Source: Mycolicibacterium nivoides (lineage in GTDB: Bacteria; Actinomycetota; Actinomycetes; Mycobacteriales; Mycobacteriaceae). Taken from it: a DNA stretch of 64,000 bases. The position numbers and the translations under genes are program-made. Shown one piece after another: positions 1,252 to 31,237 of the stretch; the first letter of the stretch is position 1, and every line of letters starts with the position of its first letter. The DNA lies in NCBI RefSeq assembly GCF_003855255.1, contig NZ_CP034072.1:2930801-2994800 (forward strand), read 5' to 3'. The notes beneath the pieces are model-generated. The model worked only from the letters and a program-made list of their open reading frames with translations. It did no database searches and was not told where the DNA came from.

Positions 1252-1412
1252 CCAGCTGGGCAGCGCGGACCCCGCGACGGGATGCACCGCAAATCAAGGT
1301 CAGTATTTGCAGTTTCAACTGCCGTTTCCCTTTAGGGGTCGAACGGCAGGACAAGCACCCGGCCGGCGGGAGCGCCGAAGGTCAGAGCGCCCATCAGCAA
1401 ACATCGTTCGAC

Positions 1413-1441
1413 GCTGGGCGGACCCGTTGAGTCCGCCCAGC
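1413..1441 (-). terminator. Hairpin terminator after secreted repeat protein copy 2
   Basis: A perfect 11-bp stem (GCTGGGCGGAC with its complement) closes a 7-base loop, 17 bp past the stop of the 1459-1866 gene. There is no U-tract, which is common for mycobacterial terminators. Confidence 0.6.
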
Positions 1442-1458
1442 TTTCTCGGGTTATCCGA

Positions 1459-1866
1459 TCAGTCCCGGTGGTTCCAGGCGCCGCCGGCCCTGCCGTGGAT
1501 GGCAGCGCCGCCGCCCTTGCCGTTGGCGAAACCGCCGCCGGGGTATCCCTTGCTCCAGTCGTGGCCGGCCCACGCACCGCCGGGCCACGGGCTGACGAGG
1601 GGCGGGATCTCGGCGCCGGAGATGGCGGGGACCCCGGAGATGCCAGAGATGGCGGACGTCACCGGATCGCTACCGACCTTGGTGAAGGGCGCTTTCTTAC
1701 CGCCAGGACTGACCGGCGCCACCGGATCGCTACCGACCTTCGTGACGGGTCCGGCGTTGGCCACCGCGCCAGAGCCGAGGATGCCGGCAAGCGCCATCGC
1801 ACCCGCCGCCACGACCACGCCGGCCGCACGCTTGATCCTGTTCAGACTTCCCCTTGTTGCTGCCAT
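1459..1866 (-). CDS. Small secreted protein with WPGGAWAGHDWSKG motif (copy 2)
   Basis: A 135-residue paralogue of the protein at 860-1171. The start at 1866 is preferred because AGGA lies 7 bases upstream and the protein then begins MAATR like its partner. The signal peptide (1-38) ends ANA-GP. The mature region has two TKVGSDPV copies (42-49 and 62-69), a hydrophobic Ile/Ser/Gly stretch (70-90), one WPGGAWAGHDWSKG unit (94-107), YPGGGFANGK and GGAWNH. Copy 1 has two repeat units and lacks the middle region, so repeat number varies between the copies. No known family was recognised. A promoter-like TTGAAT-18-TAACAT sits at 1946-1917. Confidence 0.8.
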   Translation of the reverse strand: MAATRGSLNRIKRAAGVVVAAGAMALAGILGSGAVANAGPVTKVGSDPVAPVSPGGKKAPFTKVGSDPVTSAISGISGVPAISGAEIPPLVSPWPGGAWAGHDWSKGYPGGGFANGKGGGAAIHGRAGGAWNHRD

Positions 1867-1916
1867 GGCCATTTCCTTTGCCCGGCCCGGCACTGCCACC
1901 GGACCCTTCGGCAACA

Positions 1917-1946
1917 ATGTTACTTATCGGTAACTAGGCGATTCAA
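1917..1946 (-). promoter_or_regulatory. Predicted promoter for secreted repeat protein copy 2, with GTTAC palindrome
   Basis: TTGAAT (1946-1941) and TAACAT (1922-1917) with an 18-bp spacer face the gene at 1866. Inside it GTTAC and GTAAC form an inverted repeat (1919-1934, 6-bp centre) overlapping the -10, a plausible operator position. Prediction only. Confidence 0.45.
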
Positions 1947-2086
1947 TCACTTGGGACCGAGGTCATACGTGATTGCCGACACAACATCGAACGCCGTAAG
2001 GCAAACGCATGACGCACCATCGCGGCGCCGTCGAAACCGGATTGAGAGATTTGCTGCCCAGCTTCGACAGCCGGCCATCCACCGGC

Positions 2087-3319
2087 TCAGGAACCCCGCA
2101 ACGTCGAGGGAATCAGCGGCTCGTCGAGCAACCGACCGAAGCGCTGGGTCAGCGTCACACCGTCGGGCCGGTCGTCCAACCACGCTCGCAGCAACCGGTA
2201 ACCCTCGATGTAGGTGCTCGTGTAGGCCCGCCACAGCGGCGAGGACAGGAACCGCAGCGACTGCCTGGCCCGGTTGTCGTCGACCAGCAGCCACCGCTTG
2301 AGGAACTCCGCCACCTCGTCGACGTCGCGATGCTCGTCGTGCAGCATCAGCGCCGCGTCCTGGCGCACGTCGGCCAGCCCGGCCACCGCCTCGGAGATCG
2401 CCTCGGCGCGCTCCCCGTCGAACCGCAGCCCCAAGTCGGCGTAGATGTCGGCGGCCCATGCGCCCCATCCCGGCCCGACGATGGCATGCAACGCCAGGTC
2501 GGCCAGGCCCTCGGCCATCAGGCACTGCGGGGTGTTGACGAGGAAGATCGTCTGTTCCAGTTCGCCGTCGCGGGCCACCAGGCCGGCCTCTTTGCGGCAG
2601 TGCTCTGTGTGATGGCCCGGGTAGGACTCGTGGGCCACCAGCCGGGGCAGGTTGGCCATCTGTTGTTTGAGGTCGGCGTTGACCGCGACGGTCGACTTGT
2701 AGTCGCCCAGGTAGTAGTTGAACCCCGACCACGGTTTGTCGGTGACCACCTCGTAGGTGATGGTCTCGGTCTCGGGCAGCGGGTACGCGGCGCGCACCTT
2801 GTCGCGCAGGGCCGAGGAGAACGCGTGGATGCACTCCTCCAGCCGGGCCGGTGGGATCTCGTCTCCGGTGCGGTGGGCCTGAATTCGCTCGGCCAGCGGG
2901 CCGGTGCCGCCCAGTGCATCGTCGAGTTTCGCGTGGGCCTGGCGGTAGCGCTCGGGGTCGCCCTTGCTGATCCGCACGTCGAAATAGGCCTGCACCTCGT
3001 CGACGAAACCGACCTGCTCACCGGCGAATTTTCGGCCCGCGCAGTTGAGCGCACGCAGGTGCGCGGCGATGTATTCGGCCCGGTCGTGGTCGAGGTCGTC
3101 GGGGATCTGGGCCAGTAACCGATCTGCCTGGCGGGCCAGCTCGGCCGGGTCGGGCGCGGGCTCGTTCTCGACCGCGCGACGCAGCTGCGGGTCACCGGTG
3201 AAGGAGTCGACGTAGCCGTCCTCGACACGATCGAACCGCAGTCCGAGCAGCAGGTACTCGCGGACGAAATCGGCTGAGTCCGTCCCCGAGCCGATTCCCA
3301 AGTCCATCCCGTTTCCCAT
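2087..3319 (-). CDS. DUF885-like putative zinc metallopeptidase
   Basis: About 410 residues if it starts at the ATG at 3319; an in-frame ATG at 3307 is also possible. The segment [10 protein letters not shown], followed by a [10 protein letters not shown] helix, resembles the HExxPGHH metal site of DUF885 proteins, which are predicted thermolysin-like zinc peptidases. The protein has no signal peptide, so it should be cytoplasmic. A long reading frame continues upstream into coaA but has coaA-shadow composition and is not used. The gene is divergent from coaA with only 30 bp between the starts. The substrate is unknown, and assignment to DUF885 rests on this motif and the overall helical pattern. 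Confidence 0.7.
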
Positions 3320-3349
3320 GCCCACAACCGTAGATGTAAGACTGACCGA

Positions 3350-4288
3350 ATGCCGCGGCCGAGCGAGCCGAGCCCCTATGTGGAGTTCGACCGAAGTCAA
3401 TGGCGTGCACTGCGCATGTCGACACCGCTGAAACTCACCGAGGATGAGCTGCTGCGCCTGCGGGGTATGGGCGAGAAACTCGACATCCTCGAGGTCGAAG
3501 AGGTCTATCTGCCCCTGGCGCGGTTGATCCACCTTCAGGTGGCCGCCCGGCAGCGTCTGTTCGCCGCGACGGCGGAGTTCCTCGGTGAGCCGCAGCAGAA
3601 TCCGGACCGGCCGGTGCCGTTTGTCATCGGCGTCGCGGGCAGTGTGGCGGTCGGGAAATCCACCACCGCCCGTGTGCTGCAGGCCCTGTTGGCCCGCTGG
3701 GGCCATCACCCCCGGGTCGACCTGGTGACCACCGACGGATTTCTCTACCCCAACAAGGAGCTGCACCGCCGGAACCTCATGCACCGCAAGGGGTTCCCGG
3801 AGAGCTACGACCGGCGCGGGCTGATGCGGTTCGTCACCGCGGTGAAATCGGGTGCCGACGAAGTCTGTGCGCCGGTGTACTCACACCTGCTCTACGACAT
3901 CGTGCCGGGTGAGAAGCAGGTGGTACGGCATCCGGACATCCTGATCCTGGAAGGGCTCAACGTCCTGCAGACCGGCCCGGCACTGATGGTCTCGGATCTG
4001 TTCGACTTCTCGGTGTACGTCGATGCGCGCATCGAAGACATCGAGCAGTGGTACATCTCCCGGTTCCTGACGATGCGCTCGACGGCGTTCGCCGATCCGG
4101 CCTCTCACTTCCACCACTACTCGACGCTGACCGATGAGCAGGCCGTGTTCGCCGCGCGCGACATCTGGCATTCCATCAACCGGCCCAACCTGATCGAGAA
4201 CATCCTGCCGACCCGGCCGCGGGCCACCCTGGTCCTGCGCAAGGATTCCGACCATTCGATCAACCGGCTGCGACTGCGGAAGTTGTGA
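3350..4288 (+). CDS. coaA: Pantothenate kinase, type I
   Basis: This enzyme phosphorylates pantothenate with ATP, the first and regulated step of coenzyme A synthesis, in the cytoplasm. The 312-residue length equals M. tuberculosis CoaA. The Walker A loop [12 protein letters not shown] is at 94-105, followed by VDLVTTDGF (the Walker B/substrate region), the [10 protein letters not shown] loop and the ILEGLNVLQ strand, all hallmarks of the bacterial type I family. The N-terminus [15 protein letters not shown] aligns with the known mycobacterial start, supporting 3350. The last 29 bases overlap the end of the convergent flavin monooxygenase gene. Confidence 0.97.
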
Positions 4289-5732
4289 TCAACGGTCCGC
4301 AGCGGACATCGAAGCGCTCCCCCACCGTGTCCAGTGCGCGACGCAGGTGCTCGCGGTCGCGGTGGTGAGTCGCGATGAACCGGGCGGTGGCTGCCAACTG
4401 GCGCGGTTTCGGATACCAGCGGTTGAAGTCCAGGCCGCATTCACGGAACACTTTGACCGGCAACGTATCCGACAGCAGGCTCAGGTTGTATTGGGCCAGC
4501 GCGAACATCGCGTACGGCAACGCCGTCTTGCACTTTCTCGACAGGTCCTCCAGGTCGAGTTGGTAGAGCGGCACGGTGTTCAGCTTTCCGAGGAACATCA
4601 GATGCGTCGCGAAGTAGGCCGCGTATGACGTCAGATGCAAAGTCGCGGAACGGATTTGGATCGATAGAATCGATCCGGCGCCGGACAGGTACGGCTCATA
4701 CGGATGCTCATCGGTGATGAGGTAGCCGGTGCAGTTCACGATCCAGCTGCCAGTTGTGACCGGTTTCGAATCCCCGCTGCGCAAAACCAGATCGACGGAG
4801 CCACGGTTGTCGACGACATCCACCAAGTGGTCCATCACCACCTCGTTCAGACCCGCGGCGATGGTGGCGTTCTCCGCTTCGGACAGCACGCCGGCCATGA
4901 AGTTGGTGGCTCGCGGCGTCGGGCAGGTGCCGTAGACGGACCGGAACCACGACGCAACTTCGTTCTCGTTGGTGCCGTCGAAGCGCCGCGTCATCTCGAT
5001 GGCCATCTTGGTCAATTCGACCCCACCCCACCAGCGCTGGGCACCGGTGGGGAACAGCCGATCCCGGCTGGAGAAGAAGGTCCCCGATCCGGCCACCATG
5101 TTCACCTCACGACCTGGATACGTTGTGATCAGAGCGTGCACGGTGTCCATGGCGGTCTTGCCGCTGCCGATCACCCACACCGGGGTGTCGCTGTCGGAGA
5201 TCTCGCCGGAGCGCACATCACAGGTGTCGGGTGACACCGACCTCACCAGATCGCTGGACAGCGCCAAGGCGTCGTTCGGCGTCACGCGCACTCCGTAGGC
5301 CTTGATCAACCGGTCGGCCCGGATGGTGTGCGGTTGCCCGTCGGCGTCGCGGCAGGCGATCTGTACGGCACCACCGACAGCGTCCGCCGTCTCGAACTCC
5401 CAGCCGAACCGTTCCTCGACGCGCACCCGCTGTTTGATCTGCTGCAGGCAGTGCGCGAAGTGGTCGAGCACCTCGGGTTTGGTGGCCAGGTACGACGGTT
5501 CGCGGCCCAGCGTCCACTTGATGTCGCCGGCGGTGAACATCGGGTGGGGCTGGTGCAGCCGCACATACGGGTAGGTGTCCACCCACATGCCACCGACGCG
5601 CGGCCGACGGTCGATCAGGATGACCTTCTGGTCCGGTCTGAGATATCTGCTCGCCACGAACAGGGCGTTCATGCCGCACAGACCGGCGCCGACAATACAG
5701 ACATCGCAGCTGTCCGCAGCTGTTGTGGTCAT
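4260..5732 (-). CDS. FAD-dependent oxidoreductase, flavin monooxygenase-like
   Basis: A 490-residue flavoprotein. The N-terminal dinucleotide motif GAGLCG (15-20), an acidic strand end at [23 protein letters not shown] (the FAD contact region of FMO/Baeyer-Villiger-like enzymes), and a second Rossmann motif [10 protein letters not shown] near residue 190 support a two-dinucleotide-domain monooxygenase using NADPH. The full FMO fingerprint FxGxxxHxxxY/F is not evident, so the reaction (hydroxylation, Baeyer-Villiger oxidation or simple oxidation) is open. It has no signal peptide. Its C-terminal codons overlap coaA by 29 bp in antisense. A gene of this type is not at this place in M. tuberculosis. 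Confidence 0.82.
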
Positions 5733-29770: not shown

Positions 29771-30139
29771 TTACACCTGGCCGGCGGCGACCAACGCGTG
29801 ATAGCCGCCGACGACATCGGTGGACCGGTGCAGACCGAGGTCGACCAGCGAGGCGGCGGCCAGGCTTGAGGTGTACCCCTCCGAGCACAGGATCACCCAG
29901 TAGACGTCGTCGTCGACGGCCTGCGGGATCCGCGCGTCACTGGTGGGATCGCAGCGCCACTCCAGCACGTTGCGTTCGATGACCAGTGCACCGGGCACCG
30001 ACCCTTCGGCGGCACGCTGGGCGGCGGGGCGGATGTCGACCAGCACGGCACCGGAATTCAGCGCCTCGGGCAGCTCTGACGCGGACAGCCGGTGCAGCCG
30101 GGTGCGGGCCTGCTCCAGCACGGTGTCGATGCGGCTCAT
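29771..30139 (-). CDS. Rhodanese-domain protein (Rv1066-like)
   Basis: A 122-residue single rhodanese domain. Residues VLVDIRPAAQRAAEG form the N-terminal block, and the persulfide-carrying Cys is Cys85 in ILCSEGYTSSLAA. It would move sulfane sulfur to an acceptor such as cyanide or thiols. It is read from the same transcript as cysteine dioxygenase, starting two bases past that stop, which implies a joint role in disposing of sulfur from excess cysteine. Confidence 0.9.
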   Translation of the reverse strand: MSRIDTVLEQARTRLHRLSASELPEALNSGAVLVDIRPAAQRAAEGSVPGALVIERNVLEWRCDPTSDARIPQAVDDDVYWVILCSEGYTSSLAAASLVDLGLHRSTDVVGGYHALVAAGQV

Positions 30140-30141
30140 CG

Positions 30142-30660
30142 CTATCCCTCCGGCGCGTCGGTGAGTTCGGTGCGGTTGCGGCGCAAGGTGTTCTGCGGTG
30201 TCACCTCGTAATAGGACATCGCGGTCAACGGCGGCGAGTACGCATGAACGCTCAGCGTCGGACCCGAGATGGCCGCAGGCGCATGCACCACGTCATGCAC
30301 CCACCCCAAAGGGAATGCCGCCTGGTCGCCTGCCGTGAAGCGTCGCTTCCGTAAAAGCTCGCCGTCCCAACGAGTTTCGCGCAGTGCGCCGGACACCACG
30401 GTCAGCGCACCCAAGGATCCGCCGTGGTCGTGCAGTTCGGTCGACTTGTCGGGCACCCAGCTGATCAGCCAGACCTCGATCTCGTCGTCACCGGACAACC
30501 GCGTGTACCAGCGGTCATCCTTGGGCAGTCTCCGCAACAGCCGGTCGTAGCGGCCGGACAGCACTTCGTCGGCGGCATGGTCGGTGGCGTGCAGCAGGTC
30601 GGGCAATCGCAGCCGCGTGGGCGCGGAGACAGCAGGAACGGGCGCGAGCGTGGACAGCAT
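30142..30660 (-). CDS. Cysteine dioxygenase type I (Rv1065-like)
   Basis: A 172-residue cupin oxidising cysteine to cysteine sulfinate with O2 and Fe(II). The three-histidine iron site is seen as ELHDHGGS (His77 and His79) and LGWVHDVVH (His122). The Cys-Tyr crosslink Cys of the mammalian enzyme is replaced by Gly in GGSLG, as in most bacterial forms. It is preceded by TTGGAG and by a short cysteine-rich uORF at 30706-30750, suggesting control by cysteine. It forms an operon with the rhodanese gene. Confidence 0.88.
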   Translation of the reverse strand: MLSTLAPVPAVSAPTRLRLPDLLHATDHAADEVLSGRYDRLLRRLPKDDRWYTRLSGDDEIEVWLISWVPDKSTELHDHGGSLGALTVVSGALRETRWDGELLRKRRFTAGDQAAFPLGWVHDVVHAPAAISGPTLSVHAYSPPLTAMSYYEVTPQNTLRRNRTELTDAPEG

Positions 30661-30705
30661 GAAGGGAACTCCAAGGATGGCGGCGGAACAGGGCAGACGG
30701 GCGCG

Positions 30706-30750
30706 CTAGCAAGCCCGACAACACTCCTGGAATCCGGTCCCTTCCGTCAC
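30706..30750 (-). CDS. Cysteine-rich upstream ORF, 14 codons (leader peptide)
   Basis: GTG 30750 opens MTEGTGFQECCRAC then TAG, with three Cys codons among the last five. It lies 45 bp upstream of the cysteine dioxygenase ATG and ends before it. The AACACT hexamer is 7 bases before the GTG, fitting a leaderless transcript, and an AGGAG is embedded just before the Cys codons. In the RNA UCCAGG, inside the ORF, can pair with the UUGGAG ribosome site of the dioxygenase. Cys-tract uORFs that sense cysteine are known in mycobacteria. Coding is inferred from sequence only. Confidence 0.6.
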   Translation of the reverse strand: MTEGTGFQECCRAC

Positions 30751-30766
30751 GGCCGCCAGTGTTGCA

Positions 30767-30772
30767 TAGATT
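30767..30772 (+). promoter_or_regulatory. Predicted -10 element for a leaderless lpqV mRNA
   Basis: TAGATT lies six bases before the lpqV ATG at 30779. The same short stretch carries the promoter of the divergent Cys-rich uORF on the other strand, so the two genes share a very compact control region. Confidence 0.4.
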
Positions 30773-30778
30773 GGCGGC

Positions 30779-31237
30779 ATGCGCCGTTACACGTGGACCA
30801 CCCGCCTGACCGCCGGAGCCGCCGCAGCGGCCGGCCTGAGCCTGCTGATCGGATGCTCGACGGACGCTGGCAAGGACCAGTCCGGGGCATCCACGGCACC
30901 TTCCCCACAGGCGACGACGACCGCCGAGGCGGCGACGCCGACGGCCAAGCCCGGTGAGGTTGCGACGTCGCCCGGCGGGGTCACGACGGCCGTCGGCGCC
31001 GACGCGCAGTCCACCGAGGAGGAGTACTTCCAGGCCTGTCATGCCGCGAAGCTCTGGATGCAGGCCAAGGGCGGGGATCTCAAGGCGCAGATCGAGCCGT
31101 ATCTGGCGAGCGTGCAGGCCCCCGATGCGGCACCGGGGCCGGGCACGTACAACGTGGCGTGGGGCCAGCTCGAGCCGGGGCGTCAGGCTGCGGTCATCGT
31201 CGCCGCGCGGGCAGCGGCCGACGAGCTCTGCAGCTAG
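30779..31237 (+). CDS. lpqV: Lipoprotein LpqV
   Basis: A 152-residue lipoprotein. The signal peptide has a lipobox LLIGC (Cys26), so it is anchored to the membrane by an N-terminal lipid. A Ser/Thr/Ala/Pro linker (27-70) leads to a small alpha-helical domain with two cysteines (QACHAAK and DELCS) that could form a disulfide. It is the positional orthologue of Rv1064c. The ATG at 30779 follows TAGATT, giving a leaderless transcript. The stop shares four bases with the convergent SulP gene. Confidence 0.88.
   Translation: MRRYTWTTRLTAGAAAAAGLSLLIGCSTDAGKDQSGASTAPSPQATTTAEAATPTAKPGEVATSPGGVTTAVGADAQSTEEEYFQACHAAKLWMQAKGGDLKAQIEPYLASVQAPDAAPGPGTYNVAWGQLEPGRQAAVIVAARAAADELCS

Follow-up and report, generated by a model that had tools for sequence, protein, structure and literature searches.

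In classical attenuators, such as the trp leader and translational examples like ermC, the position of the ribosome on a leader ORF sets the fold of the RNA. The tna operon leader ORF of E. coli, TnaC, precedes an amino-acid-degrading gene; its key residue lies near the stop, a C-rich stretch follows, and tryptophan is reported by arrest. Work ascribed to Canestrari and dated 2020 reportedly described polycysteine leaderless sORF attenuators of M. smegmatis at six loci. Published mycobacterial relatives with Cys sORFs are cysteine-responsive according to passages citing that work (PMC9094748, PMC9031893, PMC13236596), and uORFs precede cysA2, Rv0485 and nirA (Shell 2015, PMC4633059). Literature on cysteine dioxygenase (CDO) with leader peptides, sORFs or rhodanese was searched and gave nothing on point, the polycysteine sORF paper lying outside the scope of the search; Rv1065 turned up in one paper, on immunopeptidomics. 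The CDO locus may already be among the published M. smegmatis Cys sORFs.

The window, the whole 64 kb stretch of DNA that was analysed, contains a short minus-strand ORF separated by 45 nt from a CDO_I gene (Table 1). Reading of its codons (GTG ACG GAA GGG ACC GGA TTC CAG GAG TGT TGT CGG GCT TGC TAG, 30750-30706) confirmed the preliminary description of a 14-codon ORF with three Cys near its end, VTEGTGFQECCRAC. The CDO protein gave a best match of 5.3e-14 against solved cysteine dioxygenases and was 99% identical to its Mycolicibacterium septicum DSM 44393 counterpart. The rhodanese gene is presumably co-transcribed with CDO.

Table 1. Features of the CDO leader and operon in the window.
Feature	Position	Strand	Basis
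Leaderless-type Cys uORF, GTG...TAG, VTEGTGFQECCRAC-stop	30750-30706	-	Sequence reading and conservation
Tandem Cys codons TGT-TGT	30718-30723	-	TGT in 115/118 and 111/118 distinct uORFs
-10-like AACACT of the uORF/CDO transcript, ending 7 nt 5' of the uORF GTG	30758-30763	-	Inspection and kept spacing
Small hairpin CGGGC (30717-30713) / GCCCG (30702-30698), uORF stop TAG in loop	30698-30717	-	Group co-evolution
C-rich interval from uORF stop to SD, with which the uORF 5' part co-evolves in Mycobacterium	30673-30705	-	Partner-swap test, composition
CDO Shine-Dalgarno GGAG	30669-30672	-	Inspection
Cysteine dioxygenase (CDO_I) gene, 172 aa, ATG at 30660	30142-30660	-	PF05995, 3.4e-11
Rhodanese-domain gene, 2 nt after CDO	29771-30139	-	PF00581, 7.7e-9

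The leaderless-type -10 proposed earlier just 5' of the ORF was found in place, with conserved spacing. On the plus strand lpqV (PF17301) starts at 30779, and a TAGATT (30767-30772) lying 6 nt 5' of its ATG faces the AACACT of the CDO transcript, so that two leaderless-looking promoters can be read back to back (30758-30779). Within this region AATCTATGCAACACT is retained in many Mycobacterium loci. A sigma-70 scan of the locus, which requires a -35, found nothing. A longer in-frame start at 30780 was not accepted as the main uORF start, being located 5' of the -10 and missing in L002. The AGGAG noted previously within the ORF is present (30728-30724), but has no start codon within SD reach. 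Just past lpqV, on the same strand as CDO, lies a SulP-family permease-like gene (PF00916; 31234-32943, minus strand).

The uORF is conserved beyond chance across Mycobacterium and its family relatives. The loci compared are part of the 221 of 301 family genomes with a match. With identical upstream regions counted once, a Cys-Cys short uORF preceded CDO in all but one of 95 Mycobacterium regions (94/95) and in 44/50 from the family's other genera. Outside the family the same rule was satisfied by 3/9 same-order and 4/37 class-level loci, which serves as a rough background. The gene was found in 57 of 60 genomes of the genus, and all 56 upstream regions read carried a Cys-Cys short ORF (56/56). 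In the sole Mycobacterium exception, L096, a stop replaces the second Cys; exceptions in the other genera were L092, L121, L133, L134, L135 and L224, with single-Cys versions in L092, L133 and L135. Cys codons, frame, stop and promoter spacing were all kept across species; for the Cys codons and the stop, a lack of conservation would have refuted the proposal by the terms of the preliminary description. Within the 64 kb, both strands included, the VTEGTGFQECCRAC ORF was the only short ORF (8-20 aa) with three Cys in its last five residues, and also the only one with at least two Cys in the last six plus a leaderless-type -10. Order-3 Markov sequences yielded a mean of 0.45 ORFs of the latter kind per strand, so chance could not be excluded from the sequence alone; conservation does exclude it.

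Codon choice and promoter spacing were similarly constrained. In 118 distinct CC uORFs, TGT encoded the first Cys in 115 cases and the second in 111; in 43 long ORFs of the window, picked automatically, it made up 44 of 166 Cys codons. A NANNNT box ended 6-8 nt before the start at 81/83 Mycobacterium, 32/33 Rhodococcus-type and 5/15 other distinct loci; the first two groups together gave 113/116, compared with 9% at shifted offsets. Rhodococcus-type denotes here, and in the co-evolution and structure-z tests, non-Mycobacterium loci with a peptide ending CCRG. Judged by its -10 spacing, the uORF would start without a leader, as in cysteine-responsive sORF attenuators, and Cys codons near the sORF end are conserved. 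It further resembles the polycysteine sORFs as a leaderless-type short ORF placed first in a cysteine-related transcript. It differs from them in being shorter, mostly with 2-3 Cys (117/125 distinct uORFs) and without a long Cys run, in its conserved (E)CCR, in the stop held in a hairpin loop, in its catabolic-type target and, in Mycobacterium, in a helix placed before the SD.

The CDO leader is probably a ribosome-based cysteine sensor. From the preliminary description of such a stall sensor the conserved leaderless-type Cys uORF before CDO was upheld, and the proposed RBS lock in the window was not. A regulatory role of the Cys-codon uORF appears very likely. We lean towards a cis-acting Cys-codon ribosome-dwell attenuator, related to the published mycobacterial Cys sORFs and acting on a catabolic gene. 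Counted in its favour were uORF conservation, the near-fixed TGT codons, leaderless spacing, co-evolution of the stop hairpin, the Rhodococcus-type RBS lock, the lower RBS opening cost of the window under a stalled ribosome, the longer Cys leaders at other sulfur genes of the genome and the cysteine response of published relatives. Counted against it were the single-Cys relatives L133, L135 and L092, the stop in L096 and the window taken alone, which was unexceptional: its stop hairpin gave p = 0.19 when tested singly against shuffled downstream sequence, its 90-nt leader was no stabler than shuffles (z -0.30; 68/200 shuffles as good), and its native RBS opening cost was not above that of shuffles (p = 0.33).

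Fold statistics rest on at most 146 loci, because the locus filter removed 10 of 156 (L010, L027, L047, L058, L061, L062, L065, L086, L096 and L134); of those removed, L010, L027 and L047 do have Cys-Cys uORFs. As in trpL, whose first hairpin holds the stop in its loop, the CDO uORF stop is enclosed by a hairpin, one that the preliminary description had not noticed. This hairpin co-evolves: when partners were exchanged at random within a group, a test that can leave some effects of shared descent in place, the native pairing was equalled in 0/5000 swaps in Mycobacterium (n = 57) and in 2/5000 in the Rhodococcus-type group (n = 20). Decoy regions were flat in both groups (1252 to 4786 of 5000). 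Against shuffled downstream sequence the stop-enclosing stem reached p ≤ 0.05 in 40/136 leaders and p ≤ 0.01 in 17.

In the Rhodococcus-type group the pairing partner of the uORF 5' part is the RBS (2/5000), not the interval (4012/5000). An alignment covering 23/36 Rhodococcus-type leaders contained three helices, with 90.7% of cells paired versus 38-48% when slid. Double-change cells numbered 16 versus 7.8 when shuffled and covariation was 0.214 versus 0.187; neither the count of pairs showing a double change (93/500) nor that of additional pair types (336/500) stood out. The cost of opening the RBS was calculated for all leaders with a peptide ending CCRG (n = 37, a set that includes the Mycobacterium locus L030) and was 15.5 kcal/mol native, 8.0 with a shuffled uORF and 6.5 when a ribosome sat at the first Cys, the native value lying above shuffled uORFs at p ≤ 0.05 in 29/37. 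For the other 93 leaders, mostly Mycobacterium with the window included, the corresponding costs were 6.8, 6.6 and 5.5 kcal/mol, and p ≤ 0.05 was reached in 10/93. As modelled, a lock on the RBS that is opened by a ribosome on the uORF is real in the Rhodococcus-type relatives, and the structural model of the polycysteine sORFs, a ribosome-controlled RBS, fits these leaders. By inspection, several of them (L137-L144, for example) have another helix pair further downstream, a repeat of the stop hairpin, and so consist of four segments like the trp attenuator.

The lock by which a UCCAGG in the uORF was originally proposed to cover the UUGGAG ribosome site of the dioxygenase is unsupported for the window by opening cost, fold or co-evolution. 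UUCCAGG (30732-30726) can pair with CCUUGGAG (30676-30669), and this pairing is absent from the minimum-energy fold. As a general lock it was rejected, being unsupported in Mycobacterium, where the 5' part of the uORF pairs with the C-rich interval before the SD (0/5000 swaps as good) and the signal of uORF-RBS co-evolution was weak (127/5000; second run 132/5000). When the window was folded with and without a stalled ribosome, a check suggested earlier, the opening cost fell from 8.1 to 2.7; the mean unpaired probability of the SD fell instead of rising, from 0.256 to 0.209, probably since the freed SD finds weak local partners. Mean SD unpaired probability was dropped as a read-out in stalled states and opening cost was used instead.

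An intrinsic terminator (hairpin plus T run) was not found in 30600-30850; the CDO leader differs from classical attenuators in this and, in Mycobacterium, in having no supported RBS lock. No structure emerged when a consensus fold was computed automatically for 84 leaders from the Mycobacterium set, which included the outsiders L057 and L059, and an ungrouped chimera test over 128 leaders was weak, with 15 in the best 5%. Rfam 15 at gathering gave no matches in the window or in 12 loci. NCBIfam 20, in which the 14-aa uORF was entered as a 24-aa in-frame extension because of a 20-aa limit, gave no hit for 9 of 10 submitted peptides and one sub-cutoff match (E 0.12).

In the dwell mechanism the 5' end of the transcript would lie at or beside the GTG, and the 14-codon uORF would be translated first. 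At the UGU-UGU near its end, ribosome dwell time would be set by charged Cys-tRNA, the presumed signal. The position of the ribosome would then decide the folding of the leader, which involves the hairpin around the uORF stop and a longer uORF helix whose partner would be the bases before the CDO RBS in Mycobacterium or those over the RBS in the Rhodococcus-type. A dwelling ribosome would leave the RBS open in the Rhodococcus-type; in Mycobacterium, the window included, it would open the hairpin before the SD and expose the C-rich interval. That dwelling raises CDO-rhodanese expression is a well-founded expectation for the Rhodococcus-type and a weak one for the window; the leaning towards dwelling as the ON state follows from the published relatives, which are so described in citing passages (PMC9031893, PMC13236596 and PMC9094748). 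For the organism of the window, the odds that CDO goes up at low cysteine are, in our estimate, about even. Induction by cysteine shortage is unexpected for a gene that destroys cysteine. The earlier expectation that the logic should be opposite to that of biosynthesis genes is unproven, because in the Rhodococcus-type SD lock a dwelling ribosome would switch CDO ON, which is the same sign. Were the attenuator real, a degradation gene would join those at which ribosomes gauge cysteine, one conserved uORF would drive two different RNA switches, and the paradox to test would be a shortage sensor controlling the destruction of the very compound in short supply.

The RNA output may have been rewired within the one bacterial family around the one conserved uORF, the Rhodococcus-type freeing the RBS and Mycobacterium exposing or hiding the C-rich interval, possibly with opposite signs, or with a TnaC-like arrest near the stop at high free cysteine; we regard this as doubtful. 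Control inverted in Mycobacterium is an unlikely variant, in which a stalled ribosome would break the uORF-interval helix, the exposed C-rich, G-poor interval would act as a putative Rho or nuclease site, and low cysteine would turn CDO off; with ample cysteine the hairpin would reform and CDO would be made. It would suit a catabolic gene, and in Mycobacterium the uORF 5' part co-evolves with the interval (0/5000), the RBS being unclear. The interval averages 51% C and 18% G in Mycobacterium, and interval, RBS and gene start, when folded on their own, have less structure than shuffles (mean z +1.18); the Mycobacterium leader up to the SD is stabler than shuffles (mean z -1.36; 21/82 below -2). 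However, the Rhodococcus-type structure predicts the opposite sign, and the terminator search described above was negative.

A second alternative is arrest by the nascent peptide, as in TnaC: (E)CCR would halt the ribosome near the stop at high free cysteine, or in response to another thiol or metal signal, the leader would stay open and the catabolic operon would be made. The two leaders are alike in preceding an amino-acid-degrading gene, in a key residue near the stop and in the C-rich stretch that follows, and the logic matches catabolism. Beyond the Cys count, the position of CCR relative to the stop is conserved and GAG precedes Cys-Cys in 95/118 distinct uORFs; some relatives keep one Cys alone. 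However, the peptide is unrelated to TnaC, TGT in tandem is more suggestive of decoding than of arrest, and the codons vary no more at their third positions than elsewhere, a sign of selection on codons or RNA and not on the peptide alone. Peptide arrest is judged quite unlikely.

The favoured dwell attenuator would lose its paradox if induction by starvation were ordinary, that is if the CDO-rhodanese pair scavenged sulfur from other thiols and was not a disposal route. Other Cys-leader genes of the genome are sulfur-assimilation genes. Longer Cys leaders lie 5' of a two-domain rhodanese gene (VSARLELVLTKRRAVDLCRVAGCCCCCCC-stop) and of a sulfite/nitrite reductase gene (VTAAHNSTTRIQLVARRHVDFKRVCSCCCLP-stop), and a candidate shares its strand with a sulfate-binding protein gene (MHSASGKTESHVLALIAVGSCAVADVACCR-stop). 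These longer leaders are of the same kind as the cysA2 and nirA uORFs in PMC4633059. The leader of CDO is shorter than they are and retains (E)CCR. The CDO match, moreover, is at family level only, but its nearest solved relatives carry the name cysteine dioxygenase, and scavenging is considered improbable. The question raised is whether the actinobacterial CDO-rhodanese pair serves cysteine disposal or sulfur scavenging. Finally, a chance ORF without function, for which only the Markov yield of comparable ORFs per 64 kb strand speaks, is scarcely credible, being refuted by conservation in genus and family alongside the codon bias and co-evolving RNA pairing.

Other sulfur loci of the genome (L161, L172, L175) carry Cys-rich leader ORFs, one with seven consecutive Cys. 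Two further genomic copies of GAGTGTTGTCG were set aside, both lying within long ORFs that resemble hypA and an HNH gene. CDO was searched for in phages without a match. Inspection by eye, which follows no fixed rule and has no base rate, found a different peptide at 7/9 same-order loci, whose Cys comes right before the stop and in most cases follows F-D-[EQ], and other Cys-containing leaders at 10/37 class-level loci (L191, L202, L206, L208, L210, L212-L215 and L219). Outside the family (L057, L059-L064, L206) the small peptide preceding CDO mostly has the form F-W...R-R...F-D-[EQ]-x-C near the stop. The class-level loci L212-L215, which belong to one family, share a leader ending RCRCSSC or similar, about 240-340 nt before the CDO match.
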